From assembly GCF_000744705.1 (NCBI RefSeq), contig NZ_JQML01000001.1, positions 5,590,017 through 5,654,016 on the forward strand: a stretch of DNA of 64,000 bases, given 5' to 3'. This DNA is from Streptacidiphilus albus JL83 (GTDB lineage: Bacteria; Actinomycetota; Actinomycetes; Streptomycetales; Streptomycetaceae). A model generated the notes under the pieces. That model saw only the letters and a list, made by a program, of their open reading frames with translations. It had not been told where the DNA came from and ran no database searches. Both the position numbers and the translations under genes were made by a program. Below, in pieces: positions 38,322 through 60,782 of the stretch. Positions within the stretch are counted from its first letter, which is position 1. Every line of letters starts with the position of its first letter.

Positions 38322-38431
38322 CTGACCTTGTGCCTGGGGTGTCCCCGGGTCTCTTGTGCGTGCGTGCATATCTGCCGCGGCATTTTGGGAACCGCGCTTC
38401 TCACACCGCTCCTCCGCAAGGAGTCGAGGGG

Positions 38432-42956: not shown

Positions 42957-42990
42957 TTGACGGTCTGACCTGCCTGCTCCTGCAGCGCAC

Positions 42991-43036
42991 CGAAAGGGCC
43001 CCTGCGACATCCTCGGATGTCGCAGGGGCCCTTTCG
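42991..43036. terminator. Long perfect hairpin after tuf
   Basis: A 22-bp perfect stem (42991-43012 with 43015-43036) has only TC between its arms. It sits between the convergent tuf and acyltransferase genes and can stop transcription from both sides. Confidence 0.92.
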
Positions 43037-43082
43037 CGCTTCCCCGGCGGCCGTCCCCCGGCCGCCTCCAACCGGGCGGGGG

Positions 43083-44405: not shown

Positions 44406-44615
44406 GTGAGATTAGCCGATGGCCCGGCTGTGGCCGGTAACGTCCGGGGCACGGACCGACGCCGCCTTCACCCCTCCGGGGGACTGGTCCCGGCCGGTGC
44501 CGCCCGGTATCCGGCGGGGGAGTTCGAGGACTCGGCCCCCTTCCCCGGCAACCGAGCAAGTATGCTCGACCGACTGATCGGGAGCCCATTCGATCGGGAC
44601 CACCTTCACCGGAAC

Positions 44616-46640
44616 ATGAACGGCATGGCTCGACAGATGACAATTCCGCGTGTGCTCGGCCGCTCGGTCGACCCCGGGGGCTCGGTTCCGGCGAAGCACG
44701 ACTCCCGCAGGCCGCTGGCCCTGGCCCGGTCGGTCGGCCTGTCCTGGCTGATCCCGGTGCTGCTGTGGCTGGTCCACCTCGACGTGCTGGTGCTGCCGCT
44801 GCTGGTGGTGCTGATCGCCGGGCTGATCCGGGTCGGCGGCGGGCTGCTCGACCGGATCGTGATCGCCGCCTTCCTGCTCGCCGGCGCGCTGATGACGCTG
44901 GGCCTGCTGGCCTCGATCTGGCCGTGGGGCCTGAACCCGCTGCCGGCCTCGGGCGTCCTGCTGACCGCGATCAGCGTGGCCGCCTGGCTGGACCGGCGAC
45001 GGTTCCGGCTGGTGTGGCGGGTGCGCGGCACGGACGCGATCATCCTGGGCACCGGTGCCGTCGTCGGGTACCTGGTCCGGCACGGGGTGACGGCGGTCTC
45101 CTCGGCCGGGCGCTACGCCGAGATGACGATCGGCGACCGGGTCACCCACTTCGCCATCTTCGACACCGTGGAGCGGGTCGGCGGCTACCTCTTCCTGAAC
45201 CAGACCGCGGCCAACGCCTCGGTCAGCGGGAACACCGCCGAGGTGTATCCGCAGGGCTCGCACTTCCTGCTCGCCTGGATCGACGTCTTCGTCCGCTCCA
45301 GCACCTCGCTGACCGCCGCCCCGCAGGCCTACGACCGCTACTGCGCCTACACCCTGGCCGGCTTCGTGGTCTTCTGCATGTCGCTGATCTGGGGTGCGCG
45401 CTGGATCGGCGGCCCCCGGCTCCGGGGCTGGCGGGCGGCGGCGGTCTGCTCCGTGGTGGCGGCGATCGTCCTCGGCAGTCCGTTCAGCATGCTGCTGAGC
45501 TACGGCTTCGACTCGGAGATCGTCGGCCTGGCGTTCCTGGCGGTGTCGATCGCGCTGCTGGTCCGACCGGCCATGGGGCTGGTCGAGTACGCGCTGGTGG
45601 CCGGCGCCGCGCTGGTCACGGTCGGCTACGCGTACAACATCTTCGACGCCTTCGTGGGCATCGCCCTGCTCGGCGGGCTGCTGGTGTACTGGCGCCGGCA
45701 CCGCGGCCACCGGGTGGCGCTGTACACCGCGCTCGGCGTCGGCGGCCTGCTGGCGATCACCCCCAGCCTGATCAGCGTGCTCTCCTCCTTCGACGTCGGC
45801 CAGCAGGCGCAGGCCGCGGGCCACGAGGTCTCGCTGAGCCGCGCGCTGCTGATCGCACTGACCGCGGTGGTGCTGGTCGGGGTGGTGTCGGCGGGCCGCA
45901 GGCTGGGCGCGACCGCGAGCATCCTGGGGGTCACCGTGGTCGGCGGTGCGTTCGTCATCGCCGTCTTCGGCGCCTGGCAGCTGCACACCCTGGGGCACCT
46001 CTCCTACTACTTCGAGAAGATGGCGACCGCCGGACTCATCATCTCGCTGGTCGGACTGGGCTCGGCCGGCTGGCTGCTGCGGCCGGTCCGCCGGGCCGCT
46101 GCGGCCGCCCCGTGGCCGGTCCGGCTGCGGGAACCGCTGCTCTCGGTCGGGGCCTCGGTCGTCGCACTGAGCCTGTTCGCCGGGGTGCAGTGGGGCGTGC
46201 CGTCGGTGGACAACGCTCCGTCGCAGTGGAAGCAGACCTCGCTGTGGGCCTGGGCGAAGGGGAAGTCGCCCGCGGACATCGCGCCGCTGGTGCACACCTT
46301 CCTCCGCCGCGACCTGGCCCGCACCACCGGTACCGCGATCATCCTGTACACGAACAACGGCGCCCGGAACTGGCAGGCCACCTACTTCGCCAGCGCCATG
46401 GCCCGCAACGGCCGGTTCGGGGCGCTGTCCGAGGGGCTGGAGCAGGTCGGCATCGGAGCCACGGCCGGGACCGAGGCCACCTACCAGGCCGCACTGGCGC
46501 AGCTGCGGGCGGTGATCCAGATCTGCCCCGACGGAGCCACCCTGTTCGTCGGGAACCAGGCGCTGGCGAGCCGGCTCCAGGACGATCTCGATACGGACGG
46601 GGTGCGCAACGCCACCGTCCTCTATGCCCCGCTGCACTGA
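44616..46640 (+). CDS. Large polytopic membrane protein, GT-C-like
   Basis: The start is uncertain: ATG 44616, 44625 and 44637 are all possible (44616 used, 674 residues). A TATGCT box at 44561-44566 suggests a promoter. About eleven transmembrane segments are followed by a hydrophilic C-terminal domain (near residue 545 onward). The loop GNTAEVYPQGSHFLLAWIDV after the third or fourth helix resembles the extracytoplasmic catalytic loops of GT-C glycosyltransferases that use polyprenyl-linked sugars. No family was assigned with confidence. Its neighbours make it a candidate sugar polymer assembly protein. Confidence 0.6.
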   Translation: MNGMARQMTIPRVLGRSVDPGGSVPAKHDSRRPLALARSVGLSWLIPVLLWLVHLDVLVLPLLVVLIAGLIRVGGGLLDRIVIAAFLLAGALMTLGLLASIWPWGLNPLPASGVLLTAISVAAWLDRRRFRLVWRVRGTDAIILGTGAVVGYLVRHGVTAVSSAGRYAEMTIGDRVTHFAIFDTVERVGGYLFLNQTAANASVSGNTAEVYPQGSHFLLAWIDVFVRSSTSLTAAPQAYDRYCAYTLAGFVVFCMSLIWGARWIGGPRLRGWRAAAVCSVVAAIVLGSPFSMLLSYGFDSEIVGLAFLAVSIALLVRPAMGLVEYALVAGAALVTVGYAYNIFDAFVGIALLGGLLVYWRRHRGHRVALYTALGVGGLLAITPSLISVLSSFDVGQQAQAAGHEVSLSRALLIALTAVVLVGVVSAGRRLGATASILGVTVVGGAFVIAVFGAWQLHTLGHLSYYFEKMATAGLIISLVGLGSAGWLLRPVRRAAAAAPWPVRLREPLLSVGASVVALSLFAGVQWGVPSVDNAPSQWKQTSLWAWAKGKSPADIAPLVHTFLRRDLARTTGTAIILYTNNGARNWQATYFASAMARNGRFGALSEGLEQVGIGATAGTEATYQAALAQLRAVIQICPDGATLFVGNQALASRLQDDLDTDGVRNATVLYAPLH

Positions 46641-46840
46641 GAGGCTCCTCGGCACCGGGCCGGAGGGCGGCTGTTCGCCGGTGTGTTAGCTTGCTGTCGG
46701 GCAGGTGTAAGTACCGGTACCCTCGGTGTCCTGTGCTCCGGGGTCGACATCTCGGAAGCCGAACCCGCCAGTACCTCCGGACGCGCACACCGGGCGTCCC
46801 GTTCTCGTTCCCCCGGCTCCCGCTTGGAAGTGCGAACTCC

Positions 46841-48028
46841 ATGTCCTCTGCTGAACTACTGGCGAAGCACGACGACCGCCGCGGTCGTCCCGAGAACTCG
46901 GACCAGCAGCAGCAGGGCGGCCCCGCCGCCTCGGGGCGGAAGCGCCTCTACGCCCTCGACGGCATGCGGCTGATGGCGGCCCTCGGAGTGCTCAGCTTCC
47001 ACTGGACGGCCTACGTCGACATCGGCGGCATCTGGCCGCGCGGCCACAGCCCCGCCCAGGTCATGCCGGCGGTCAACCACGTCGCGGCCTACGGCTGGCT
47101 CGGCGTCAACCTCTTCTTCGTCATCAGCGGCTTCGTGATCTGCATGAGCTGCTGGGGGAAGAGCGTCGGGCAGTTCTTCGTCTCGCGCGTGGTCCGGCTC
47201 TACCCGGCGTACTGGGCGGCGGTGCTGCTGACCTCGACCGTGCTGCTCACCATGGGCGCCTGGATCAGGCACGGCGCGGCCAACGGGCTCGACGCCCAGG
47301 CCATCCTGGCCAACCTGACCATGCTGGAGACCCCGCTCGGCATCCGCCAGGTCGACGGTGTCTACTGGACGCTCTGGGCCGAGCTGCGGTTCTACGTCCT
47401 GTTCGGGGTGCTGGCCGCGTTCGGGCTGACCTACCGCAAGGTCGTCGCCTTCTGCGGGGTCTGGATGTTCGTCGCGATCCTCAGCATCCAGGCCAAGTCG
47501 GAGCTGCTGACCACCATTGCGATGCCGCAGTACGCCCCCTTCTTCATAGCGGGCATGGCGATCTTCCTGATGTACAAGTACGGCCCGAACCTGCTGCTCT
47601 GGGGCATCGTCGGATTCAGCTGGCTGATCGCCCTGGCCCAGGTCCGGCCGATCGAGGCGATGTACGTGAACGTGCTGAACCACGGACTCAACTGGTACGT
47701 GGTCGCGGCCGGCTTCACCGTGGCCATGGGACTGGTGCTGGCCGCGGCCCTGGGCCTGTTCGACTGGGCCAACTGGAAGTGGCTCACCGTGGCCGGCGCC
47801 CTGACCTACCCGCTGTACCTGATCCACCAGGAGGCGGGCTGGACGCTGATCCACTTCGGCCTCGGCCACGGCCTCGGCGTGGTCGGCTCGCTCGGTACGG
47901 CCTTCGCCGTCGTGGTGGTCGTCGCCTACCTGATCCACCGTCTCATCGAGCGTCCGCTGTCCAAGCCGTTGAAAAAGGGTCTGGACCGTTCGATGGTGTC
48001 CCTGCGGGAAGCCAGCCGTGCTCGCTGA
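46841..48028 (+). CDS. Acyltransferase 3 family membrane protein (second)
   Basis: ATG 46841 follows GGAAG and gives 395 residues. Helix 1 carries LDGMRLMAALGVLSFHWTAY with the catalytic His, and YGWLGVNLFFVISGFVICM follows; about ten helices are predicted. It is the same type as the first acyltransferase but not a close copy. It probably acetylates or otherwise acylates a surface sugar. The glycosyltransferase gene begins 48 bases downstream, so they are likely co-transcribed. Confidence 0.88.
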   Translation: MSSAELLAKHDDRRGRPENSDQQQQGGPAASGRKRLYALDGMRLMAALGVLSFHWTAYVDIGGIWPRGHSPAQVMPAVNHVAAYGWLGVNLFFVISGFVICMSCWGKSVGQFFVSRVVRLYPAYWAAVLLTSTVLLTMGAWIRHGAANGLDAQAILANLTMLETPLGIRQVDGVYWTLWAELRFYVLFGVLAAFGLTYRKVVAFCGVWMFVAILSIQAKSELLTTIAMPQYAPFFIAGMAIFLMYKYGPNLLLWGIVGFSWLIALAQVRPIEAMYVNVLNHGLNWYVVAAGFTVAMGLVLAAALGLFDWANWKWLTVAGALTYPLYLIHQEAGWTLIHFGLGHGLGVVGSLGTAFAVVVVVAYLIHRLIERPLSKPLKKGLDRSMVSLREASRAR

Positions 48029-48076
48029 AGGCCCTTCCCGAGAGTCCGCGCAACCTCTCCGACTTGGTGCTGCCCT

Positions 48077-48991
48077 ATGACGACGATCGACATCATGCTG
48101 CCCTACTACGGCGATGTCGCGCTGATGCAGGCCGCCGTGCACAGCGTGATCGCGCAGAGCGACCCGGACTGGCGGCTGCTGGTCGTCGACGACGGCAAGG
48201 AGCCCGGGGTCCCGGAGTGGTTCGCGAACCTCGGCGACGACCGGGTGAGTTACCAGCGCAACGAGAAGAACCTCGGCGTCACCGGGAACTACGACAAGTG
48301 CCTGGGCCTGGTCGGGGCGGAGCACTTCGTCATGATGGGCACCGACGACATCATGCTGCCCAACTACCTGGCGACGGTCCGGGCGGCGCTGGCGCAGTTC
48401 CCGGGAGCGGCGATCGTGCAGCCCGGGGTCCAGGTCATCGACGGCGCGGGCCGGCCGAGCACCACCCTGGCCGACGAGTCCAAGCGCCGGCTCTACGCGC
48501 CCCGCTTCACCGGCCGGAAGCTGCTCGGCGGCGAGGACCTGGCGCTCAGCCTGCTGCGCGGCAACTGGCTCTACTTCCCCTCCCTCTGCTGGCGCACCGA
48601 CGCGGTGCGCGCCATGGGCTTCCGTCCCGGCCTGGAGATCATCCAGGACCTCGCCCTGGTCATCGACCTGCTGCGGGACGGGGAGCAGATGATCGTGGAC
48701 GACACCCTCTGCTTCCAGTACCGGCGCCACGCGATCAGCATCTCCTCGGCGAGCGCCTTCTCCGGCAGCCGGTTCACCGAGTCGAGGCGCTACTTCCTGG
48801 ACGAGGCCGAGCGGCTGGACGCGGTGGGCTGGACCAGGGCGGCCAAGGCGTCGCGACTGCACATGTCCTCGCGGATCCACGCGCTGACCCTGGTGCCGGG
48901 CGCCCTCAGGGCCGGCCAGCGCGCCGGGGCCCGTACCCTGCTCACCTACGCGGCGGGCCCGGCCCGCCGCCGCCAGAATCTGCACGGCTGA
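48077..48991 (+). CDS. Family 2 glycosyltransferase
   Basis: The 304-residue protein (MTTIDIMLPYYGDVALMQAA) has the GT-A fold: LLVVDDGKEP near residue 35 binds the nucleotide, and MMGTDDIMLP near residue 91 carries the DxD-type metal site. RHAISISSASAF near residue 217 matches the acceptor region of GT2 enzymes. No transmembrane segment is present, so it works on the inner face of the membrane or in the cytoplasm. It lies in a run with the epimerase gene (25 bases apart). Sugar specificity is unknown. Confidence 0.85.
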   Translation: MTTIDIMLPYYGDVALMQAAVHSVIAQSDPDWRLLVVDDGKEPGVPEWFANLGDDRVSYQRNEKNLGVTGNYDKCLGLVGAEHFVMMGTDDIMLPNYLATVRAALAQFPGAAIVQPGVQVIDGAGRPSTTLADESKRRLYAPRFTGRKLLGGEDLALSLLRGNWLYFPSLCWRTDAVRAMGFRPGLEIIQDLALVIDLLRDGEQMIVDDTLCFQYRRHAISISSASAFSGSRFTESRRYFLDEAERLDAVGWTRAAKASRLHMSSRIHALTLVPGALRAGQRAGARTLLTYAAGPARRRQNLHG

Positions 48992-49016
48992 CGCCCCGCA
49001 CGACCGGAGTTGAGTA

Positions 49017-49985
49017 ATGACTGAAACCGCTGTCCCGACCGTCCCGTCCGCCGAAGGACCGCGGCGGGTCGCCGTGCTCGGCGGCACCGGGTTCATCGGC
49101 CGGGCCCTCTGCGAGGCCCTGGCAGAGGGCGGGCTTCCGGTGCTGGCGATCGCCCGCAGGGAGCCGACGGTCCCGGTGGCCGGTTCCTTCCGCGCCTTCG
49201 ACCTGGTCGGCGGCTCGCCCGCCGAGCTGGCCGCGCTGTTCGCCGCGGAGGGCGTGGGCACCGTCGTCAACGCCGCCGGCGGAATGTGGGGCCTCGACGA
49301 CGAGCAGATGGTCGACGCCAACGTCGGCATGGTCCAGCGGGTCATCGAGGCCCTGGCCCTGCTGCCGGAGCGGGTCCGACTGGTGCAACTCGGCTCGGTG
49401 CACGAGTACGGCCTCACCCCGGTGGGCACGGTGCAGGCCGAGTCCGACGAGACCCACCCGCAGATGGTCTACGGGGAGCTCAAGGTCAGGGCCACCCGGC
49501 TGGTGCTGGACGCGGTCGAGGCCGGCGGCCTGGACGGCGTGGTGCTGCGGGTCGGCAACGTGGTCGGCGCCGGACAGCCCGGCCACAGCCTGCTCGGGGT
49601 CATCGCCCGCAAGCTCGCCGAGGCGGCGGAGGAGTCCCGCACCGCCGAGCTGACGCTGGCGCCGCTGGCGGCCAAGCGCGACTTCGTCGGGCTGGGCGAC
49701 ACCGTCGCCGCCGTGCTGGCGGCCGTCCGGGCGCGGACACTGCCGCCGGTGGTCAACGTCGGCCGCGGCGAGGGCGTCTCGGCCCGGCACATGGTGGAGC
49801 TGCTGATCGAGGTCAGCGGGGTGCCCACCGAGGTGCTGGAGAACACTGCGCCGGAGGGCCCGGGGGCGGAGACCGAATGGCAGTGCCTGGACGTGGCCCT
49901 GGCAGCCCGGGCACTCGGCTGGGAGCCCCACCAGTCGCTGGCCGGCGCCGTCGACAGCCTCTGGAAGGCGGAATACCGGGGCTGA
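49017..49985 (+). CDS. NAD-dependent epimerase/dehydratase
   Basis: The 322-residue protein has the extended-SDR NAD(P) motif LGGTGFIGRALCEAL near residue 23, and YGELKVRAT (YxxxK) near residue 152, with the preceding Ser in LGSVHEYG. It probably changes a nucleotide-sugar (epimerisation, reduction or dehydration). The C-terminal substrate region (HMVELLIEVSGVPTEVLENT) is similar to sugar-nucleotide epimerases of polysaccharide clusters. ATG 49017 follows CGGAGTTGAGTA. The substrate cannot be assigned. Confidence 0.83.
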   Translation: MTETAVPTVPSAEGPRRVAVLGGTGFIGRALCEALAEGGLPVLAIARREPTVPVAGSFRAFDLVGGSPAELAALFAAEGVGTVVNAAGGMWGLDDEQMVDANVGMVQRVIEALALLPERVRLVQLGSVHEYGLTPVGTVQAESDETHPQMVYGELKVRATRLVLDAVEAGGLDGVVLRVGNVVGAGQPGHSLLGVIARKLAEAAEESRTAELTLAPLAAKRDFVGLGDTVAAVLAAVRARTLPPVVNVGRGEGVSARHMVELLIEVSGVPTEVLENTAPEGPGAETEWQCLDVALAARALGWEPHQSLAGAVDSLWKAEYRG

Positions 49986-50121
49986 GGGTGCTTCGAGCAC
50001 TTGGTAGCGTTCCCCCGCGTACCCTCCGCGCCCCGCCGATCGGTCCGGGGCCGGGGACGGCCGTTCCAGGACGGCCCGAGAAGCGGGTCCTCCCATGATT
50101 CTGCGTTGTTCGGAGCGAGCG

Positions 50122-51126
50122 ATGTACCGTACGTCCACCCAGGAGCACGTCGGCGATGACCGGCCGGCGCCGCTGCTCTCCGTCGTCGTCCCCATCTTCA
50201 ACGAGGAGGAGGCGCTGCCGCTGACAGTGCAGCGGCTGCGGCCGATCCTCGACGGACTGGACGTGGAGTACGAGGTCGTCGGCGTCGACGACGGCAGCAC
50301 CGACGCCACTCCGCAGCTCATGGTGGCGCTCCGGCGCGAGTGGCCGCAGCTGCGGATCATCCGCTTCCGCCGCAACTCGGGCCACCAGGCCGCGCTCACG
50401 GCCGGCCTGCACAACGCCTTCGGCGAGTACGTCGTCAGCATCGACGCCGACCTGCAGGACCCGCCGGAGAAGATCCCGGAGATGTTGAAGCTCGCCCGCG
50501 ACGGCGGCTGCGACATCGTCTACGGGGTCCGCTCCGACCGCAGCACCGACGCCTTCTTCAAGCGCTCCACCGCGGCCGCCTACTACTGGCTGATGCGGCG
50601 GCTGGTCGGCAAGAAGATGCCCTCGCACGCCGGCGACTTCCGGCTGCTCAGCCGCGCCGCCGTGGACGCGCTGAAGTCGCTCCCGGAGAACCAGCCGGTC
50701 TACCGGCTGCTGGTGCCCTGGCTCGGCTTCACCAGCGCCACGGTCTACTACGAGCGCGAGGAACGCGTCGCGGGCACCACCAAGTACCCGCTGTCCAAGA
50801 TGATCCGGCTCGGGCTCGACAGCGTCACCAACTTCTCGGCCAGCCCGCTGCGTCTGGCCACCTGGCTCGGCATGGCGAGCTTCGTGGTGTGCCTGGTGCT
50901 CGCGGTCTACACCACGTTCAGGTACTGCCTGAACGACACCGTGCCCGGCTGGTCCTCGCTCTTCATCGGCATGCTGTTCCTCGGCGGCGTGCAGCTGATC
51001 TGCCTCGGGCTGCTGGGCGAGTACGTCGGCCGGATCTACTCGGCGGTGCAGTCCCGGCCCTCCTACTTCATCGGCTACGACTCCGCCGACACGGCGACCG
51101 AGGCACCCGCCGGTGCCGGCAAGTAG
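50122..51126 (+). CDS. Polyprenyl-phosphate glycosyltransferase (GtrB/DPM1-like)
   Basis: ATG 50122 follows CGGAGC and is preferred over ATG 50095, which lacks a binding site. The 334-residue protein has VVPIFNEEEALPLTVQRL, VDDGSTDATPQL and SIDADLQDPPEKI (DxD). Two C-terminal helices (about residues 250-275 and 285-310) end in LLGEYVGRIY. This is the GtrB-type layout, which moves a sugar from a nucleotide donor to undecaprenyl phosphate on the cytoplasmic side. The next two genes (large membrane protein and GtrA) complete a flip-and-transfer set. Confidence 0.9.
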   Translation: MYRTSTQEHVGDDRPAPLLSVVVPIFNEEEALPLTVQRLRPILDGLDVEYEVVGVDDGSTDATPQLMVALRREWPQLRIIRFRRNSGHQAALTAGLHNAFGEYVVSIDADLQDPPEKIPEMLKLARDGGCDIVYGVRSDRSTDAFFKRSTAAAYYWLMRRLVGKKMPSHAGDFRLLSRAAVDALKSLPENQPVYRLLVPWLGFTSATVYYEREERVAGTTKYPLSKMIRLGLDSVTNFSASPLRLATWLGMASFVVCLVLAVYTTFRYCLNDTVPGWSSLFIGMLFLGGVQLICLGLLGEYVGRIYSAVQSRPSYFIGYDSADTATEAPAGAGK

Positions 51127-51149
51127 CCTCCCGAACAGAATGCAGGGTC

Positions 51150-53543
51150 ATGGGCGCACAGCACAGCATCGGTGAGACGACCGCCCCGGTGCCCGACGGC
51201 CCCGGGGCGTCGGGCACGGGCCGGGACGGCGGCAGCCCGGCCCTGGTCCTGCGGCTGCTGCCGGCCGCCGCGGCGATCTGCCTGCTGGTCGTCCTGCTGC
51301 TGCTGGCGCACACGCCGGCCCTGGACATCCTGCGCTACGCCGGTTACGTGGCCTGGGGCGTCGTGCTGCCCGGAACCCTGGTCTTCCGGACCCTCCGGCG
51401 GACCCCGCACACCCTGGTGGAGGACCTCACTCTGGGGGCCGGCACCGGCCTGGCACTGGAGCTCGCCGCCTGGGCCGTGCTGATGCCGCTGCACCTCCAG
51501 CACTGGGCGACGCTCTGGCCGCTGGTGGTGGTGCTGCCGTACGCCCTGGTGCCCCGGCTGCGCCGGCACTGGCGGCCCACCGGCTACACCAGGCCCTCGC
51601 TGGGCTGGTCCTGGTCGGTGGCCGGTGTGGTGGCCAGCACCAGCGGCTACTTCTACGGCGCCTTCTTCATCGAGAACCCGATCCTGCCCGGCAGCGCCAC
51701 CGCCCGGCAGTACATCGACCTGCCCTACCAGCTGTCGCTGGCCGGGAACGCCACCCACAGCTTCCCGGTGACCCTGCCGGAGGTCTCCGGCGAGTCCCTG
51801 GGCTACCACTGGTTCTTCGCCGTCCACATGGCGATGACCAGCATGGTGGGCCACCTCGACCTGCCGGTGGTCGAGATGCGGCTGATGCTGCCCGCCCTGG
51901 CCGCGCTGGGGATGCTGGTGGCCTCCGTGGTCGGCTGGCGGATCACCGGCCGGGCCTGGGTGGGACCGGTCGCGGCGCTGCTGCTCTTCACCATCGGCGA
52001 GTTCAACCCGGTCTATCCGCTCACCGTGGCCGGCATGCCCTTCGGCTCGCCCCAGGTCGTGCTCATGGCCTGGGCCAGCCTCTCCCTCACCTACAGCCAG
52101 CCGCTGCTGTTCGCCCTGGTCGGGGTGGCGGCGGAGGCGCTGCGGGACCCGCAGTCGGAGCGGCTGCGCCGGGTCCCGGCCATGGGTCCCGGGGTGTACG
52201 GCCTGGTGGCGGTGTTCGCCTTCGCCTCCAGCGCCGCCAAGGCCAGCTCGCTGCCGGTCACCCTGGCGGCCCTGGCGGTGGCCGGGCTGGCAGCCCTGGT
52301 GCGCACCCGGCGCATCCCCTGGCGGATCGTGGCGCTGGGGGCGATCGTCGGCGCCGGGCAGCTGTTCGCCACCGCGGTCGTCTTCCACTTCCAGAGCTAC
52401 GGGCTGGAGGTGCAGCCGCTCAGCAACATCAGCCAGTACTGGGCCGATCCGGACCACTCCCGGGGCGCGGCGCTGCAGGCGGCCCTGGTCGCCATGACCT
52501 TCGCGGCGCTGCTGCTCAACACCCAGCTACGGCTGGTCGGCATGCTGCCGCTGCTGTGGCGCTCACGGCTGCGCCTCAGCGACAGCCAGTGGATGCTGCT
52601 CGGCGGGGCGGTCGCCGGACCCGGCGCCTACCTCGCCCTCAACGGCTGGAACGCGAGCTACTTCACCCATGCCGGGCTGGCCTTCGGGGCCTTCCTCTCG
52701 GCCTGGGGCTACTGCGAGGCCTTCGACCGCGCCGCCCTGTCACGCAGGGCCAAGGCCCTGCTCGGTGTCGGCACTGCGGCCTTCGTGGTGCTGCTCACCC
52801 TCGGCATCCACGCCTACGCGTCCCGCTGGTCGAGCTTCGCGCTCCGGCTGTTCCACGACCGCTCCGGCAACCGCCCGTACACCGTGCTGCTGCCCCTGGT
52901 CGCGGCCGCCCTGGCGCTGGCGGCGCTGGCCCTGGTGATCGGCCTGCTGTGGCGGCTGGGCCACCGGGTGCTGCCGGGGCTGCGCGGCCGAGGGCTGGTG
53001 GTGCTGCTCACCGCCGCCCTGGTGGCTGGTGCGCCGACGCTGCCGCTGGACGTGGTCAACACCGCGCGGAACGGCTGGGCCAGCGAATGGCCGCTGTCCG
53101 GCTCCCAGGCCGACGCCGCCCGCTGGGTGCGGGACCACAGCAGCGGCAGCGACGTGCTGGTCACCAACGACCACTGCCTGACCCAGAACGGTCCGGTCGC
53201 CCCGAGCAACGGGGCCTGCAGCTACGCTCTGGGCTTCTGGCTGAGCGCCTACTCGGAGCGCTCGGTCCTGGTCGAGGGCTGGGGCTACGACCCGCAGTTC
53301 GTGGCCGGCGGCAACGGTGGCGCACCGTTCTGGGACCAGTCGCTGCTGGCCCTGAACCAGGACGCGATCTACCGGCCCACGGCCGGGCTGCTGACGGAGC
53401 TGTACCAGCGGTACCACGTCCGCTTCATCGTGGTCGACCGCGTTGACGGCAAGGAGTCGCCGGCCCTCGGGGGACTGGCGCACAAGGTCTACGACAACGG
53501 GCGCATCGGCGTCTACCAGCTGCTCCCAGGAGAGACCCCATGA
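51150..53543 (+). CDS. Large polytopic membrane protein, GT-C-like
   Basis: ATG 51150 starts a 797-residue protein with about 13 transmembrane segments and a C-terminal outside domain of about 170 residues. After the fourth helix, PEVSGESLGYHWFFAVHM resembles GT-C extracytoplasmic loops. The C-terminal domain has LVTNDHCLTQNGPVAPSNGA and SVLVEGWGYDPQF, with two Cys possibly disulfide-bonded. It may use the polyprenyl-linked sugar made by the upstream GtrB-like enzyme. It overlaps gtrA by 4 bases (ATGA). Confidence 0.65.
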   Translation: MGAQHSIGETTAPVPDGPGASGTGRDGGSPALVLRLLPAAAAICLLVVLLLLAHTPALDILRYAGYVAWGVVLPGTLVFRTLRRTPHTLVEDLTLGAGTGLALELAAWAVLMPLHLQHWATLWPLVVVLPYALVPRLRRHWRPTGYTRPSLGWSWSVAGVVASTSGYFYGAFFIENPILPGSATARQYIDLPYQLSLAGNATHSFPVTLPEVSGESLGYHWFFAVHMAMTSMVGHLDLPVVEMRLMLPALAALGMLVASVVGWRITGRAWVGPVAALLLFTIGEFNPVYPLTVAGMPFGSPQVVLMAWASLSLTYSQPLLFALVGVAAEALRDPQSERLRRVPAMGPGVYGLVAVFAFASSAAKASSLPVTLAALAVAGLAALVRTRRIPWRIVALGAIVGAGQLFATAVVFHFQSYGLEVQPLSNISQYWADPDHSRGAALQAALVAMTFAALLLNTQLRLVGMLPLLWRSRLRLSDSQWMLLGGAVAGPGAYLALNGWNASYFTHAGLAFGAFLSAWGYCEAFDRAALSRRAKALLGVGTAAFVVLLTLGIHAYASRWSSFALRLFHDRSGNRPYTVLLPLVAAALALAALALVIGLLWRLGHRVLPGLRGRGLVVLLTAALVAGAPTLPLDVVNTARNGWASEWPLSGSQADAARWVRDHSSGSDVLVTNDHCLTQNGPVAPSNGACSYALGFWLSAYSERSVLVEGWGYDPQFVAGGNGGAPFWDQSLLALNQDAIYRPTAGLLTELYQRYHVRFIVVDRVDGKESPALGGLAHKVYDNGRIGVYQLLPGETP

Positions 53544-54037
53544 ATTCCACAGCCCAGCAGACCGCTGCGGGGGCGGCCGCACCGGGCGGCTCCGGCTCCG
53601 GCGGAAAGCTGCGCAGCCAGCTGCCCGTCTTCGCGGTCATCGGCGTCCTGAGCACCCTGCTCTACCTGGGGCTGTACGTCCTGGCCAGGCTGGTGGTGGG
53701 GGAGCAGACCGGCAATCTCATCGCGTTGGCGCTGAGCGCGGTCGCCAACACCGCGGCCAACCGCCGGTTCACCTTCGGCGTCACCGGCCGGGAGAGCGCG
53801 CTGCGGCACCAGCTGCAGGGCGGCGTGGCCTTCCTGATCGGCCTCGGGCTGAGCAGCGGCGCCCTGGCGCTGCTGCACCACTGGGATGCCAGGCCGAGCC
53901 GGATGGTCGAGCTGGGGGCGCTGATCGTGGCCAACGTCCTGGCCACGCTGCTGCGCTTTCTGCTGCTGCGGGCGTGGGTGTTCAAGCCCACACCCGCAGC
54001 GGCCGCCCCCGTCGGCAGCGACGAGGGCGAGAGCTGA
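53540..54037 (+). CDS. GtrA-family membrane protein
   Basis: The 165-residue protein has four transmembrane helices and the GtrA fold (QLPVFAVIGVLSTLLYLGL then NTAANRRFTFG near residue 73). GtrA proteins are thought to flip polyprenyl-phosphate sugars across the membrane. The N-terminus has a Gly/Ser/Ala-rich extension. The start codon overlaps the preceding stop, so it is translated together with it. It converges with rfbC, with 6 bases between stops. Confidence 0.9.
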   Translation: MNSTAQQTAAGAAAPGGSGSGGKLRSQLPVFAVIGVLSTLLYLGLYVLARLVVGEQTGNLIALALSAVANTAANRRFTFGVTGRESALRHQLQGGVAFLIGLGLSSGALALLHHWDARPSRMVELGALIVANVLATLLRFLLLRAWVFKPTPAAAAPVGSDEGES

Positions 54038-54043
54038 CGCCGC

Positions 54044-54643
54044 TCAGCCGTTGTCCAGCGAGGCGGTGAACTCCCGCACGGCGTCGTAGGACGGCAGCAG
54101 GCCACCGGCGACGGCCTCCGCCAGTGAGGGCGCCGCCGCGTCGCGCACGGACAGCTGGGGCGCGTCGGCGGGCCACTCGATGCCGAGGTCCGGGTCGAGC
54201 GGGTGGACCGTGTGCTCGCCGGTGGGGTTGTAGGTCGCGGAGCAGAAGTAGGACAGCGTCGCGCTCTCGCTGAGCGCGCAGAAGCCGTGGCCCAGGCCCT
54301 CCGAGAGGTAGACCGCGCGGCGGTCCACATCGTCCAGCCGCACGCCCTCCCACCGGCCGAAGGTCGGCGAGCCGACCCGCAGGTCGACGATCACGTCGAG
54401 CACCGCACCGCTGACGCAGCTCACGTACTTCGCCTGGCCGGGCGGCACATCGGCGAAGTGGACGCCGCGGACCACGCCGCGGGCGGACACCGACAGGTTC
54501 GCCTGCGCCAGCCGCAGCGGGTGGCCGACCGCCTCGGCGAGGTGGTCGAAGCGGTAGTACTCCATGAACATGCCGCGCGGGTCGCCGTGCTGCGGGGAGG
54601 TGACCTCCCAGGCGCCCTCGATGCTCAACGGCCGGATCTTCAT
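54044..54643 (-). CDS. rfbC: dTDP-4-dehydrorhamnose 3,5-epimerase
   Basis: The 199-residue enzyme ([20 protein letters not shown]) carries the RmlC signature [20 protein letters not shown] with the catalytic His near residue 62, [14 protein letters not shown] near residue 113 and the Tyr in [10 protein letters not shown] near residue 131. It performs step three of dTDP-L-rhamnose synthesis. It overlaps rfbA by 4 bases (ATGA). Confidence 0.95.
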
Positions 54644-55515
54644 GCGGTGCGCCCTTCAGTCAGCAGTTCGATCAGGTAGGAGCCGTAGCCGCTCTTCAGC
54701 AGCGGCTGCGCCAGTGCGCGGAGCTGGTCGTCGTCCAGGAAGCCCATCCGCCAGGCGACCTCCTCCACGCAGCCGACCTTCAGCCCCTGGCGCTGCTCCA
54801 TCACCCGGACGTACTCGGACGCCTGGACCAGCGAGTCGAAGGTCCCGGTGTCCAGCCAGGCGGTGCCCCGGTCCAGCACGGTGACCTGGAGCTGCCCGCG
54901 CCGCAGGTAGACCTCGTTGACCGCGGTGATCTCCAACTCGCCGCGGGCGCTGGGCTGGAGCGTCCGGGCGACCTCCACCACGCTGTTGTCGTAGAAGTAC
55001 AGGCCGGGGACGGCGTAGCGGGACTTGGGCTTCTCGGGCTTCTCCTCGATGGAGATCACCCGGCCCTCGCGGTCGAACTCGACGACGCCCAGGGCGGCTG
55101 GGTCGGCCACCGGGTAGGCGAAGATCCGCCCGCCGACCAGCGGACCCTGCAGCGAGAGCCGGGTGCCGAGGCCGCTGCCGTGGAAGATGTTGTCGCCGAG
55201 GACCAGCGCCACCTCCTCGTCGCCGATGAAGTCGGCTCCCAGCACGAACGCCTGGGCGATGCCCTCCGGGCGCTCCTGGACCGCGTACTCCAACCGCAGG
55301 CCCCACTGCGAGCCGTCCCCGAGCAGGCGCCGGAACTGGTCCTGGTCCTGCGGAGTGGTGATGATCAGGATCTCCCTGATCCCCGCCATCATCAGGGTGG
55401 TCAGCGGGTAGTAGACCATCGGTTTGTCGAAGACGGGCATGAGCTGCTTCGACACGGCCCGGGTGAGGGGCCAGAGCCGAGAGCCGGTACCGCCGGCCAA
55501 GAGGATTCCACGCAT
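54640..55515 (-). CDS. rfbA: Glucose-1-phosphate thymidylyltransferase
   Basis: The 291-residue enzyme ([20 protein letters not shown]) has the nucleotidyltransferase motif and [11 protein letters not shown] near residue 28. DNIFHGSGL near residue 108 holds a metal-binding Asp. It makes dTDP-glucose from dTTP and glucose-1-phosphate. It is divergent from rfbB (74 bases), so rfbAC and rfbBD are controlled from one short intergenic region. Confidence 0.96.
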
Positions 55516-55574
55516 GGGCGAAGCCTATGTGCTCCGGGGTCGACGGTCCCCCGCCGGGGATCCTTCCGGCCCCG

Positions 55575-55580
55575 TATGAT
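55575..55580 (+). promoter_or_regulatory. rfbB -10 box, leaderless start
   Basis: TATGAT lies 9 bases before the rfbB ATG and no ribosome binding site is present, which points to a leaderless mRNA. The -35 region is weak. Confidence 0.55.
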
Positions 55581-55589
55581 GCCCGTACT

Positions 55590-56567
55590 ATGCGTATCCT
55601 CGTGACCGGCGGCGCCGGCTTCATCGGTTCGGAGTTCGTACGGCAGTTGCTCGGCGCTGACGACTCGCTCCGGATCACCGTCCTGGACAAGCTCACCTAC
55701 TCCGGCGTCGAGGAGAACCTCGCGCCGGTCGCCCACCACCCCGGCTACAGCTTCGTCCGCGGCGACATCTGCGACCCGGACGTCGTCGACCAGGTCATGC
55801 CGGGCCATGACGCGGTGGTCCACTTCGCCGCCGAGTCCCATGTCGACCGCTCCATCGCCGGGGCGGGCCCCTTCGTCACCACCAACGTGCTCGGCACCCA
55901 GGTCCTGCTGGACTCGGCCCGCAAGCACCGGGTCGGCCGCTTCGTCCACGTCTCCACCGACGAGGTCTACGGCTCGATCAGCGAGGGCTCGTGGACCGAG
56001 GAGTGGTCGCTGCAGCCCAACTCGCCCTACTCCGCCTCCAAGGCCGCCTCGGACCTGCTGGCGCTGGCCTACCACCGCACCCACGGCATGGACGTGGTGG
56101 TGACCCGGTGCTCCAACAACTACGGGCACTACCAGTTCCCGGAGAAGCTCATCCCGCTGTTCACCACCAACCTGCTCGACGGCAAGCAGGTCCCGCTGTA
56201 CGGCAACGGCGGCAACATCCGTGACTGGCTGCACGTCTCCGACCACTGCCGGGGGATCGCCCTGGCGCTGGACAAGGGCCGGGCCGGCCAGGTCTACAAC
56301 ATCGGCGGCGGCACCGAGATCACCAACAAGGAGCTCACCGGCCTGCTGCTGGACGCGGCCGGCGCCGGATGGGACATGGTCGTCCCGGTCGAGGACCGCA
56401 AGGGCCACGACCTGCGCTACTCGCTCGACATCAGCAAGATCAGCGAAGAACTCGGCTACTCGCCGCAGGTCCGGTTCGAGGACGGTCTGGCAGCCACCAT
56501 CGCCTGGTACCGCGACAACCGCGCCTGGTGGGAGCCGCTCAAGCGGAAGGCAGCCCTGGAGTCGTGA
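55590..56567 (+). CDS. rfbB: dTDP-glucose 4,6-dehydratase
   Basis: ATG 55590 is chosen because the conserved MRILVTGGAGFIGSEFVRQL start begins there; 325 residues. The Rossmann motif, HFAAESHVDRSI near residue 79, the catalytic STDEVYGS near residue 124 and YSASKAASD (YxxxK) near residue 150 match RmlB. It converts dTDP-glucose to dTDP-4-keto-6-deoxyglucose with tightly bound NAD. rfbD overlaps its stop by 4 bases (GTGA). Confidence 0.96.
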   Translation: MRILVTGGAGFIGSEFVRQLLGADDSLRITVLDKLTYSGVEENLAPVAHHPGYSFVRGDICDPDVVDQVMPGHDAVVHFAAESHVDRSIAGAGPFVTTNVLGTQVLLDSARKHRVGRFVHVSTDEVYGSISEGSWTEEWSLQPNSPYSASKAASDLLALAYHRTHGMDVVVTRCSNNYGHYQFPEKLIPLFTTNLLDGKQVPLYGNGGNIRDWLHVSDHCRGIALALDKGRAGQVYNIGGGTEITNKELTGLLLDAAGAGWDMVVPVEDRKGHDLRYSLDISKISEELGYSPQVRFEDGLAATIAWYRDNRAWWEPLKRKAALES

Positions 56568-57493
56568 GCCGGTCCGAGCACAGCAGCTGGTTGGTCACCG
56601 GCGCGGGGGGGATGCTCGGCCAGGACCTGCTGGCCGTTCTCGCTGCGGTACCAGGGGTCCAGGTCACCGGGGCGACCCGGGCCGACCTCGACATCACCCG
56701 TCCCGAGGCGGTCGCCGCCGCCGTCGGTGACTACGACATCGTCGTCAACGCCGCGGGCTGGACCGACGTGGACGGCGCGGAGACCCCGGAGGGGGAGGCC
56801 GCCGCGGCGGCCGTCAACGCCGCCGGGGTGCACAACCTCGCCGCGGCCTGTGGCGCCCGCAGTGCACTGCTGCTCCATGTCTCCAGCGACTACGTGTTCG
56901 ACGGATCGGCCACCATGCCGTACCCGGAGCACGCCAGGACCGGCCCGCTGAACGCCTACGGCCGGACCAAGCTGCTGGGGGAGCAGGCCGTCACCGGGCT
57001 GCTGCCGAGCCGGGGCTATGTGGTCCGCACCGCCTGGCTCTACGGTGAGCACGGCAAGAACTTCCCGGCGACCATGCTCCGGCTGGCCGCCGAACGGCCC
57101 ACCATCGACGTCGTCCAGGACCAGCGGGGCCAGCCCACCTGGTCGCTCCAGCTGGCGGGGAAGCTGGCGGAGCTCGGCCGGGCCGCCCTTCGGGGCGACG
57201 CCCCGGCCGGGATCTACCACGGCACCGCCTCCGGGGCCACCACCTGGTTCGGCCTGGCCCGCGCGGTGCTCGGGCTGTCCGGCCTCGATCCCGAGCGGAT
57301 CCGGCCGACCACCTCCACCGCGTACGTCCGGGCCGCCCGGCGGCCCCGCTACAGCGTGCTGGGCCACGACAGCTGGGCCAGGGCCGGCCTGGCGCCGCTC
57401 CCCGACTGGCGCTCCGGCGTGGAGGAGGCGCTCCGGCGCCCGGCCTTCCAGGCCCTGCAGCCGGGACGCCTCCAGCCGGCCGAGCAGCGATAA
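56564..57493 (+). CDS. rfbD: dTDP-4-dehydrorhamnose reductase
   Basis: GTG 56564 overlaps the rfbB stop; 309 residues. VTGAGGMLGQDLLAVL near residue 10, NAAGWTDVDGAE near residue 64, HVSSDYVFDGS near residue 105 and YGRTKLLGE near residue 131 are RmlD features. It reduces dTDP-4-keto-rhamnose to dTDP-L-rhamnose using NADPH. The flippase gene starts 14 bases later. Confidence 0.95.
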   Translation: MSRSEHSSWLVTGAGGMLGQDLLAVLAAVPGVQVTGATRADLDITRPEAVAAAVGDYDIVVNAAGWTDVDGAETPEGEAAAAAVNAAGVHNLAAACGARSALLLHVSSDYVFDGSATMPYPEHARTGPLNAYGRTKLLGEQAVTGLLPSRGYVVRTAWLYGEHGKNFPATMLRLAAERPTIDVVQDQRGQPTWSLQLAGKLAELGRAALRGDAPAGIYHGTASGATTWFGLARAVLGLSGLDPERIRPTTSTAYVRAARRPRYSVLGHDSWARAGLAPLPDWRSGVEEALRRPAFQALQPGRLQPAEQR

Positions 57494-57507
57494 AGAATCG
57501 AACCGCA

Positions 57508-58839
57508 ATGAACAAGAAGATCGCTCGTGTGCTGAGCGTCGTCCCGCCGGGTACCCACCTGATCATCGGCGGGACCCTGGTCCTCGGGGCGGCCTCGTAC
57601 ATCCAGATCGCCGCCGCGAACCACGCCCTGACCGGCGACCCGAGGGCCGCGGTGTCCGCGCTCTGGTCGCTGATCATGACGCTCACCCTGGGCCTCTTCT
57701 TCCCGGTCGAGCAGGAGCTCACCCGGGTGGTCGCGGCCCGGGCGGTGCGCGGCGACGGGATCATGCCGGTGGTGCGCCGGGCGACCGTGGTCACCCTGGG
57801 CATCATCGCGGTCTTCGCCCTGGCCATCGCCCTGTTCGCCGGGCCGGTCGCCAGGGTCTTCCTGCACGGCCAGACCGAGCTGCTCTGGGCCTTCGCCGCG
57901 GCCATGGCCGGCATGGGGCTGGCCTTCGCCACCCGCGGCGTGCTGGCCGGACTGGGGCGCTTCAACGCCTACGGGGTCTCGCTCGGCATCGACGGCGGAC
58001 TGCGGATCGTGCTGGCGCTGGCGCTGCTGCTGGGCGGCTCGCACTCGGCGCTGGACTTCGCGCTGGTGCTGGCGGTCGCGCCGCTGGGAGCGGTGCTGTG
58101 CACCCTGCCGGCCATGCTCAGGGGCTGCTCGGCCGGACCCCAGATGCGCTGGTCGGAGCTGTTCCAGAACACCGGACTGCTGATCACCTCCTCGCTGCTG
58201 GCCCAGGTGGTGGTGAACGCCGCGGTGCTCGCCACCGGGGTGCTGGCCCCGCTGGACACCAACCTCCAGGTGGCGATCCTCAACGCCGGGGTGCTGTGCC
58301 GGGTGCCGCTGTTCGTCTTCGGCTCGCTCCAGCCGACCCTGATGACCGGCCTCTCCACGGCCGCGACCTCGGGGGACGGGCCCGGGTTCCGGAAGATGCT
58401 GGTGCAGACCTGCGGCGTGGTCGGCGGCCTCGGGGTGCTCGGCGCGGTGCCGGCGGTGCTGATCGGACCCTGGCTGCTGCGCACCTTCATGGGCGCCCCG
58501 CCGGTGCTCGGCCCGATGGACCTCTTCTGGTTCTCGGCCGGGACGATGTTCTACATGCTCGCCATGGTCCTCGGACAGGCACTGGTGGCCATGGGACGGC
58601 ATGTGCTGCAGTTGGCCGGCTGGGCCTTCGGCACGGCAGTGCTGCTGGGTGTCACCTGTGTGCCCGGATCGGTCGCGCTGAGGGTGGAGGTGTCATACTT
58701 CCTGGGTTCGCTCAGTACGGCCGTGCTGCTGCTGGGTCTCATCTGGCGCGAGTCCAGGCGCACCGCGCGTCCCCACGGGGCCGCCGACACGCCGGCACCC
58801 GGCCGGGCGGCAAGGCCCCGGGCCACCGAATCCCTCTAG
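57508..58839 (+). CDS. MOP-superfamily flippase (Wzx-like)
   Basis: The 443-residue membrane protein (MNKKIARVLSVVPPGTHLII) has about twelve to fourteen helices without long loops. The pattern matches the polysaccharide biosynthesis flippase group of the MATE/MOP superfamily. It probably moves a lipid-linked oligosaccharide to the outer face of the membrane. It follows rfbD in the same operon. The C-terminus is a polar tail (RRTARPHGAADTPAPGRAAR). Individual family members are poorly conserved, so the assignment rests on topology and context. Confidence 0.75.
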   Translation: MNKKIARVLSVVPPGTHLIIGGTLVLGAASYIQIAAANHALTGDPRAAVSALWSLIMTLTLGLFFPVEQELTRVVAARAVRGDGIMPVVRRATVVTLGIIAVFALAIALFAGPVARVFLHGQTELLWAFAAAMAGMGLAFATRGVLAGLGRFNAYGVSLGIDGGLRIVLALALLLGGSHSALDFALVLAVAPLGAVLCTLPAMLRGCSAGPQMRWSELFQNTGLLITSSLLAQVVVNAAVLATGVLAPLDTNLQVAILNAGVLCRVPLFVFGSLQPTLMTGLSTAATSGDGPGFRKMLVQTCGVVGGLGVLGAVPAVLIGPWLLRTFMGAPPVLGPMDLFWFSAGTMFYMLAMVLGQALVAMGRHVLQLAGWAFGTAVLLGVTCVPGSVALRVEVSYFLGSLSTAVLLLGLIWRESRRTARPHGAADTPAPGRAARPRATESL

Positions 58840-58868
58840 TCGACTTCCAGGTGAAAGGCGCGACTTCC

Positions 58869-59276
58869 GTGCAACTTTCCGTGCTCACCTCCATCACCAG
58901 CGTGGTGGTGATGGCATGCATCCTGGAGCTGCTGCGCCGTCAGCAGCTTCGGGAGAAGTACGCGGTCATCTGGCTGACGATCGGTGTCGTCACGGTTCCG
59001 CTCGGCTTCTTCCCGACCCTGCTCAACGGGGTGGCGCGGCGGCTGGGCGTGGCGAACGGCGCGAGCCTGGTGCTCTTCGCCGGGTTCGTCCTGCTGCTGA
59101 TGGTCTGTCTGCACCTCAGCTGGGAGGCGAGCCGACTGGAGGCCGAGACCCGGATACTGTCCGAGGAAGTCGCCCTGGTGCGCAGCAAGGTCAATCAGCA
59201 CTCCCTCCTCATCGAGTCCCTGCAGCCGACCGAGCAGTCCGCCGAGGGCCGGGAAGAGCACGAGGTCCAGGTATGA
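58869..59276 (+). CDS. DUF2304 family small membrane protein
   Basis: GTG 58869 starts a 135-residue protein with three transmembrane helices (SITSVVVMACILELL; YAVIWLTIGVVTVPLGFF; ASLVLFAGFVLLLMVCLHLS) and a C-terminal coiled coil (SRLEAETRILSEEVALVRSK). DUF2304 proteins are regularly paired with GT2 enzymes of the DPM1 type, as in mycobacterial Rv3632-PpgS. Its stop overlaps the next start by 4 bases (ATGA), so it is translated with the glycosyltransferase. Confidence 0.85.
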   Translation: MQLSVLTSITSVVVMACILELLRRQQLREKYAVIWLTIGVVTVPLGFFPTLLNGVARRLGVANGASLVLFAGFVLLLMVCLHLSWEASRLEAETRILSEEVALVRSKVNQHSLLIESLQPTEQSAEGREEHEVQV

Positions 59277-60031
59277 ACCCGGAACAGCGCGTCCTGATCA
59301 TCCTGCCCGCCTGGAACGAGTCAGAGGGCCTGCCGATGGTCCTCAAGGAGATCCAGACCAAGCTCCCGGGCGTCGACGCCCTGGTCGTGGACGACGGCTC
59401 GCTCGACGACACCGCCCGGGTCGCGGCGGCGGCGGGCGCCACGGTGGTGCGGCTGCCGTACAACCTCGGCGTGGGCGGGGCCATGCGCCTCGGCTACCGC
59501 TACGCCCACGAGCACGACTACGACGTGGCGATCCAGGTCGACGCGGACGGTCAGCACGACCCGTCCTACGTACCCGAGTTGCTGAAGGCGCTGGACCACT
59601 GCGACCTGGCGATCGGCGCGCGCTTCGCCGGGGCCGGCGACTACAGCGTCCGCGGTCCGCGGAAGTGGGCGATGCGGCTGCTGTCCGGGGTGCTCTCCCG
59701 GATAGCGCGTACCAAGCTGACCGACACCACCTCCGGCTTCCGGGCCTGCAACAAGCACCTGATCGCCTTCTTCGCGCGCTGGTACCCGGTGGAGTACCTG
59801 GGTGACACCGTGGAGAGCATGGTCGGCGCGATCCGCTGCGGCTTCACCGTGCGCCAGGTGCCGGTCGCGATGCGCGAGCGCACCACCGGAACCCCCAGCG
59901 CCTCCCCGGTGAAGGCCATGGTCTACCTGGGCCGGGCCGGCTTCGTGCTGCTGCTGGCGATGATCAGGCGGATGCCGAACCGTCCCGGCGTCGTCGCCGA
60001 GGCTCCCGTGCCGGCGGCCGCGCAGGTTTGA
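59273..60031 (+). CDS. Family 2 glycosyltransferase (polyprenyl-phosphate type)
   Basis: The 252-residue protein (MNPEQRVLIILPAWNESEGL) has VVDDGSLDDTARVA near residue 42, LPYNLGVGGAMRLGYRYA near residue 60 and VDADGQHDPSYV (DxD) near residue 84. It lacks the two C-terminal membrane helices seen in GtrB; the DUF2304 partner may supply the anchor. It probably attaches a sugar to polyprenyl phosphate. The TGA stop codon (60029-60031) lies inside the -35 box of the S10 promoter. Confidence 0.88.
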   Translation: MNPEQRVLIILPAWNESEGLPMVLKEIQTKLPGVDALVVDDGSLDDTARVAAAAGATVVRLPYNLGVGGAMRLGYRYAHEHDYDVAIQVDADGQHDPSYVPELLKALDHCDLAIGARFAGAGDYSVRGPRKWAMRLLSGVLSRIARTKLTDTTSGFRACNKHLIAFFARWYPVEYLGDTVESMVGAIRCGFTVRQVPVAMRERTTGTPSASPVKAMVYLGRAGFVLLLAMIRRMPNRPGVVAEAPVPAAAQV

Positions 60032-60056
60032 CAACAGCGCCCCGATGGGTAGCCTC
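60028..60056 (+). promoter_or_regulatory. S10 operon promoter overlapping the preceding stop codon
   Basis: TTGACA (60028-60033) and TAGCCT (60051-60056) are exactly 17 bases apart. The glycosyltransferase stop codon is part of the -35 box. The predicted start near 60063 leaves a leader of about 410 bases before rpsJ. Confidence 0.82.
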
Positions 60057-60356
60057 ATCGGCCCGGATTGGCGTCGCCTCTGTCTGGTATGGCACACTGT
60101 TCAAGTTGCTCGGTTGAGTGCCGATGCTGCGCGTCTCCGCCTTCAGGTCGGCGGGGGACCGGAAGCAAGTCCCACAGTACTCGTCGTGCCCGTGTACGGC
60201 CGTTGCCTAGTTGATGTTGACGAAGCGCGGCAGCTGCGGCGCGGACGTACGGGAATCTTCCGGGAAGGGCAAGCAGGCGCTCGATCCGGCGTTTCGCCCC
60301 GGTGTCGACCTCACAGTCGCACCAGTGTGGGCCGAGAGTTCGACCAAGGATTTTTT

Positions 60357-60467
60357 ATGGCGGGCAGCGCGACACGCCCGACCGCGTGGGTCGAAGGAAC
60401 GCCACTGGGGCCTCCACCCGGGGGACCCGGCCGCAGAAGCAGCAAGACGACACAGAAGGACTACTGA
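60357..60467 (+). CDS. Possible 36-codon leader peptide before rpsJ
   Basis: AAGGA (60346-60350) is 6 bases before ATG 60357. The peptide starts MAGSATRPTAWVEG and ends KTTQKDY; its stop codon is 6 bases before the rpsJ ATG, which suggests translational coupling. The same T-[HR]-P-T-A-W-V segment occurs at the same codon positions in the rpsL leader ORF. Confidence 0.5.
   Translation: MAGSATRPTAWVEGTPLGPPPGGPGRRSSKTTQKDY
60370..60393 (+). promoter_or_regulatory. 24-base leader element shared with the str operon
   Basis: It begins CGACACGCCCGACC and ends GCGTGGGTCG, differing from 38445-38468 at one base. It starts 13 bases after the A of the small ORF's ATG, the same distance as in the rpsL leader. 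Confidence 0.75.
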
Positions 60468-60473
60468 GAAGCC

Positions 60474-60782
60474 ATGGCGGGACAGAAGATCCGCATCCGG
60501 CTCAAGGCCTACGACCACGAGGTCATCGACTCCTCGGCGAAGAAGATCGTCGAGACGGTGACGCGTACTGGTGCGCAGGTTGCGGGCCCGGTGCCACTGC
60601 CCACTGAGAAGAACGTGTACTGCGTCATCCGCTCGCCGCACAAGTACAAGGACTCGCGCGAGCACTTCGAGATGCGCACGCACAAGCGTCTGATCGACAT
60701 CCTCGACCCGACCCCCAAGACCGTTGACTCTCTGATGCGACTCGACCTCCCGGCCGGCGTCGACATCGAGATCAAGCTCTGA
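60474..60782 (+). CDS. rpsJ: 30S ribosomal protein S10
   Basis: The 102-residue protein ([20 protein letters not shown]) is the full normal length. [20 protein letters not shown] carries the loop that contacts 16S rRNA. S10 also binds NusB and NusG, coupling translation to transcription. First gene of the S10 operon; rplC follows after 15 bases. Confidence 0.99.

Follow-up and report, generated by a model that had tools for sequence, protein, structure and literature searches.

WhiA proteins are present throughout Gram-positive bacteria. Apart from Streptomyces development and one mycoplasma, what they do is unclear, and homologues have been described as being of unknown function (PMC3781837). 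In Mycoplasma gallisepticum, WhiA is a repressor of the rpsJ operon, ahead of which it binds the sequence GAYACRCY, and whiA knockdown raises the operon's expression; the operator consists of this core and a downstream auxiliary motif (GTTGT), both of which are required, and it is the second domain of WhiA itself that reads the auxiliary motif, a domain released by ATP (PMC11701221). In most Mollicutes the WhiA site lies downstream of the transcription start site (TSS) and repression is of initiation rather than of elongation, on which M. gallisepticum WhiA has a weak effect; in WhiA-bearing groups, Actinobacteria included, the core is reported to be mostly present before rpsJ (PMC11701221). 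In Streptomyces the WhiA motif is GACAC, and the expression of rpsJ is lower in a whiA mutant of S. venezuelae (PMC3781837). There are, however, approximately 15,000 copies of GACAC in S. venezuelae (PMC4850268), so the pentamer alone is weak evidence for WhiA. The accessible text of a paper on whiA of B. subtilis (PMC10714963) contains no mention of rpsJ or ribosomal proteins. The S10 and str operons are also controlled by ribosomal proteins in E. coli, where L4 acts on the S10 operon and S7 on the str operon (PMC10931766, PMC7247131).

The 64,000-nucleotide stretch of the Streptacidiphilus albus JL83 genome considered here (the window) carries a 24-bp element in the leader of each of these two operons; the elements, the leader reading frames, the predicted promoters and the genes rpsL and rpsJ are all on the forward strand. 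The element ahead of rpsJ (S10; 60474–60782, assigned by its open reading frame and homologues), which heads the S10 operon, occupies 60370–60393 and has the sequence CGACACGCCCGACCGCGTGGGTCG, with the core GACACGCC at 60371–60378 and a class-specific 3′ part at about 60379–60393. The element ahead of rpsL (S12; 38533–38904 with a GTG start, assigned by sequence and tblastn homologues), the head of the str operon, occupies 38445–38468 and has its core GACACACC at 38446–38453. Direct reading agrees with the preliminary description of this DNA in that the two are identical at exactly 23 of 24 positions and that each begins 13 bases past the A of an ATG that is preceded by a ribosome binding site (AAGGA at 60346–60350 with the ATG at 60357, and AAGGAG at 38418–38423 with the ATG at 38432). 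It also agrees in that the open reading frame of the rpsJ leader (60357–60467; MAGSATRPTAWV...KDY and a stop) ends six bases ahead of the rpsJ ATG at 60474. The reading frame of the rpsL leader (38432–38605) behaves differently, a point absent from that description: it passes the rpsL start at 38533, overlaps rpsL out of frame and has its stop at 38605. Both frames are judged coincidental to the element, the one before rpsJ being clade-limited. At up to three mismatches the window contains two matches, namely the two elements, and 100 shuffled windows contain none. Likewise, in the whole genome (9.9 Mb) the element is confined to the rpsJ and rpsL leaders at up to two mismatches, at which the reversed pattern has no match; at three mismatches the reversed control finds one. 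Two near matches in the same genome (L003 and L004) were inspected and judged to be due to chance. The likeness of the two elements is far above chance.

From this likeness it had been proposed that the str and S10 operons are under one control, with either a leader peptide or an RNA hairpin as its means. Of this proposal, the common element is supported, since in this genome it is exclusive to the two operons at up to two mismatches; neither of the two means is supported. The 5′ end of the element, (C)GACACRCC, corresponds to the WhiA core GAYACRCY (PMC11701221), and GACAC[AG]CC is present at both sites in the window. The belief that no system of this form had been described was therefore mistaken in the case of rpsJ, for which WhiA sites are published (PMC11701221, PMC3781837). 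We consider it very probable that the element is a WhiA operator common to the str and S10 operons. The ChIP-seq peak of WhiA in S. venezuelae is 75 bp before the rpsJ start codon (PMC3781837), and in 19 rpsJ loci from records with Streptomyces in their title the centre of the element has a median position of −74 (range −91 to −54). An HTH_WhiA domain is encoded in 111 of the 118 sampled genomes of the class Actinomycetes and in 99 of the 100 good ones among them; the WhiA of S. albus itself carries the Pfam domains WhiA_N, LAGLIDADG_WhiA and HTH_WhiA. At the rpsL element binding of WhiA is inferred; rpsL is not named in the main text of either PMC11701221 or PMC3781837. This silence on rpsL counts against the WhiA operator, as do the abundance of the pentamer and, outside the class, the many WhiA-positive genomes without the core (see below). 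Further points against it are that the element is about 114 nt (rpsL) or 286 nt (rpsJ) past the predicted promoters, which is far for a repressor of initiation, and that the sign of rpsJ regulation in S. venezuelae is opposite to that in M. gallisepticum.

At up to two mismatches the element is present in 108 of the 118 class genomes, some of only 1.3–1.4 Mb, and the reversed control in none. Incomplete assemblies account for part of the absences, since 6 of the 10 genomes lacking the element also lack an rpsJ match in the homologue search. Leaders could be extracted from 86 of the 118 genomes, and when an element was called at 19 or more identical positions out of 24 within 600 nt, it was found in 68 of 72 rpsL leaders, in 45 of 81 rpsJ leaders and at least once in 84 of the 86 genomes, always in sense orientation and 53–224 nt from the start codon. 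A named genome collection contains at least 119 exact matches, and among the matches listed 118 of 119 are less than 400 nt before rpsL (40) or rpsJ (78), the remaining one being at the edge of its sequence stretch, 8 nt from the end. In a sample of 198 genomes of the phylum all 17 class members have the element, and 27 of the 181 others give matches, these with 2–3 mismatches. From the collection and the phylum sample it follows that the full 24-bp form is nearly exclusive to the two operons and, in the samples used, to one class. A search for extra sites in nine mostly small genomes found the exact core once per genome, always at the known rpsL site; matches with one or two mismatches were no more common than in the reversed control. 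A relaxed pattern also matches the DTPGHVDF codons of fusA; these look-alikes were rejected because the codons show synonymous variation among 64 fusA genes. Numerous GAYACNCCCGGNCACGTGG matches were set aside on their resemblance to the fusA look-alikes rather than after site-by-site inspection.

Within 113 elements positions 3–6, 8–11, 16, 17 and 19 are invariant, position 2 is the same in 112, and positions 7, 15 and 18 vary freely; the 3′ part thus has an invariant CG at 16–17 and an invariant G at 19, and GGGTCGG is mostly kept. Such a pattern, with invariant positions 3–6 and 8–11 and a 3′ part that drifts without compensation, is what a DNA site dominated by its core would show. One complete genome without the full element (G106, locus L337) keeps the core CGACACGCCCG 353 nt before rpsJ and has lost the 3′ half, which is what is expected if the core matters most.

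The same three freely varying positions all alter the peptide in the frame proposed for a leader peptide, T-[HR]-P-T-A-W-V, which would act in the ribosome exit tunnel. What speaks for such a peptide is mainly found close to S. albus, where both leaders combine ATG, Shine-Dalgarno (SD) sequence and element in one frame: in a sample of 14 congeneric genomes, the ATG accompanies 11 of 28 elements (rpsJ 6/14, rpsL 5/14), and MAGSATRPTAWV is identical in the six rpsJ leaders that have it. The ATG is, however, absent from the other 17 elements of the genus, the peptide sequence diverges between congeners past residue 12, and among 231 elements overall the ATG at −13 is rare, with 8 cases (locus L296 enters this set twice). 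In the same set ATG plus SD is slightly in excess in the proposed frame (13 of 231 versus 6 and 5 in the other frames, a count made without shifted windows), and any start codon plus SD occurs in 49 of 231 versus 31 and 25, shifted control windows giving 20–46; the enrichment is thus at most a slight excess. With a start codon, a frame and a peptide that are not conserved, we regard an upstream open reading frame acting through its peptide as extremely improbable, and the leader peptide was rejected for the rare ATG, the varying residues and the diverging downstream reading. The equal distance from an ATG is a trait of S. albus and some of its congeners. In the six rpsJ leaders of the genus having the ATG (the window at 60357–60473, L357, L366, L367, L379 and L382) the leader ORF and rpsJ share one reading frame; two have a stop six bases before rpsJ and four have none, so that in these four translation from the leader ATG would extend S10 at its N terminus.

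Promoters were predicted by a consensus scan in which the best-scoring site of each leader was taken and the threshold was of our own choosing; 4 of 116 shuffled leaders exceeded it. In the window the predicted rpsL promoter, TTGACC-17-TAGGCT at 38293–38321, would place the TSS approximately 117 nt before the element, and the predicted rpsJ promoter, TTGACA-16-TAGCCT at 60028–60055, approximately 308 nt before it. Over the class, a sigma-70-like promoter above threshold is found in 94 of 108 rpsL leaders and 22 of 124 rpsJ leaders, in every case upstream of the element; the median distance from the approximate TSS to the element is 114 nt for rpsL and 286 nt for rpsJ. Judged from these predictions, the element is probably transcribed in the class Actinomycetes. 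The predicted transcription, the constant sense orientation and the inverted repeats within the element are what one would expect of a cis-acting RNA in the 5′ leader, for example a binding site for a ribosomal protein or an antitermination factor, working at the mRNA level in both operons. We nevertheless hold such an RNA to be very unlikely. The CGACC/GGTCG fold of the preliminary description is not supported: in the 113 elements its stem is broken without compensation, with 13 A-C oppositions at pair 12/22 and 14 non-pairs at pair 13/21, and there is not one compensatory change, two A-to-G changes at position 12 leaving a G-U wobble. An alternative RCCC/GGGY stem was dropped, having no compensatory support either, and the predicted folds vary between genomes. 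The leaders have no match to an Rfam family, even at E values up to 5, and mimicry of rRNA or antisense pairing to it was discarded because local alignments to the genome's own rrn region were no better than those of shuffled sequences. Moreover, the core of the element is the same as a DNA site already described, and a ChIP peak lies where it is expected. The accessible texts of four papers on ribosomal protein leaders (PMC7247131, PMC10931766, PMC2864571, PMC2965389) do not describe the element. By eye, two further conserved features are seen in the leaders. One is a GTGCCTGG...CCNGGC inverted repeat just past the predicted TSS, at 38325–38365 in the window and in the rpsL leaders of many families, which is possibly a separate leader hairpin; the other is a GGACGTACGGGAATCTTTCGGGAAG-like stretch upstream of the element in rpsJ leaders of Streptomycetaceae, for example at 60243–60266.

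Sites outside the class bear on the choice between DNA and RNA. Eight genomes, selected by presence of the site pattern and belonging to three families (f49, f56 and f70, which may be Coriobacteriia), have GATACGCCCG-N4-CGTGG before rpsL, and in all eight the TTGACA of a TTGACA-n-TAnnnT promoter starts 3–4 bp after the site. The cognate site is therefore, directly ahead of the −35 box, untranscribed DNA there, which argues against both the cis-acting RNA and the hairpin proposed before. All eight genomes are WhiA-positive. A second site is found before rplB in G142, G297, G248, G167 and G178 and probably in G277; it lies inside the S10 cluster and resembles the WhiA core, GATACACCCGG[AG]CGCGTGG (L484, L485, L486, L489, L490 and L487), and no recognizable −35/−10 pair is found just after it. 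It should be noted that among 40 out-of-class genomes the core GAYACRCY was found in 2 of 40 rpsJ and 5 of 32 rpsL upstream regions of 350 nt (shuffles, 4.6 percent), so that for the members of this phylum outside the class we do not confirm the occurrence in a majority of species given in the accessible text of PMC11701221. The core is near rpsJ or rpsL, within 350 nt, in 6 of 26 WhiA-positive and 1 of 14 WhiA-negative genomes; outside the class the presence of WhiA is thus no predictor of the site.

Whether rpsJ has an element goes with the distance between tuf and rpsJ. In a comparison of 72 gaps, one per genome, the median is 561 bp where rpsJ has an element (n = 39) and 149 bp where it has none (n = 33; p = 1.6e-11), and the difference persists with family medians (14 with versus 17 without, p = 5.5e-6); two genomes in whose extracted leaders no element was seen (G036 and G070) were left out, and the ranges of the two groups overlap between 183 and 326. 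A short gap without an element and a longer one with it fit one operator per transcription unit. This rule is good, not perfect: in four genomes (G002, G104, G115 and G117) the rpsL leader is without an element. Among relatives the gap ranges from 85 bp to 17.5 kb; the latter is that of the window, where 42957–60473 is filled with other genes, of which those at 54–57 kb look by eye like genes of dTDP-rhamnose synthesis.

If the element is a WhiA operator, the HTH domain of WhiA would read its 5′ half, GACACRCC, and the homing-endonuclease-like domain would read the class-specific 3′ half (about CGACCNCGKGGGTCGG), a contact that we infer. Since the site is on leader-encoding DNA downstream of the predicted promoters, bound WhiA would adjust the transcription of str and S10 jointly. 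Alternatively, the DNA site could be a composite one, with WhiA on GACACRCC and a partner, WhiB or another factor, on the 3′ part. WhiA and WhiB are interdependent at promoters in vivo, where determinants beyond GACAC must exist (PMC4850268), and the full 3′ part is class-specific; but the accessible text of that paper gives WhiB no motif of its own, CGKGG of the 3′ part is common to the eight outgroup sites, and the reader of the second motif in M. gallisepticum is WhiA's own second domain (PMC11701221). A partner on the 3′ part therefore appears unlikely, if less so than the cis-acting RNA, and being a variant of the WhiA operator it shares part of its probability with it.

Finding such an operator at the two main ribosomal operons in most of the sampled class (108 of 118 genomes) suggests that the conserved role of WhiA lies in making ribosomes. 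We tentatively go one step further, with slightly less than even confidence: the ancestral and still general task of WhiA in Actinomycetes would be the joint control of str and S10 rather than sporulation, exerted via a near-invariant bipartite 24-bp operator in the leader DNA, one for every independent unit of transcription (only at rpsL if S10 and str are fused, at rpsJ as well if they are not), and it would possibly tie ribosome production to ATP or the growth state without (p)ppGpp. In Corynebacterium glutamicum a Rel-independent down-shift of rpsL, rpsG, rpsJ and other ribosomal protein genes has been observed, and in the same study whiA was repressed after the treatment in the rel mutant only (PMC1578569). 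One may speculate that the WhiA operator bears on this down-shift.

A WhiA site before rpsJ is already known in outline. What is new, having not been found in the main texts of open-licence papers, is the presence of sites before rpsL, the extended form of 24 bp with its near-exclusive placement, and the relation of the rpsJ copy to operon separation. The element as a literal sequence had 0 matches in paper texts, and no mapped leader is given in the accessible parts of expression papers on C. glutamicum, Actinoplanes, mycobacteria and S. coelicolor.

In E. coli the same operons are also controlled from their 5′ region; there, however, the sites are RNA structures or intercistronic sites that are bound by ribosomal proteins and serve one operon each, whereas here an RNA structure is unsupported and one sequence stands before both operons. 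With the Streptomyces targets of WhiA (PMC3781837) the element shares the GACAC core, and rpsJ is a ChIP-seq target; those targets are, however, mostly the bare pentamer in either orientation, for which MEME is reported to have revealed no further conservation, whereas here the site has a 24-bp form, is in sense orientation and is present only before rpsL and rpsJ. The greatest likeness is to the rpsJ operator of M. gallisepticum (PMC11701221), which has the same core before the same operon, followed by a clade-specific second motif, and the position downstream of the TSS, here a predicted one, is that of most Mollicutes. The Actinomycetes element differs from it in that the second motif is another and a long one, that the predicted TSS is farther away, and that there is a second copy before rpsL, a gene absent from the main text of that paper.
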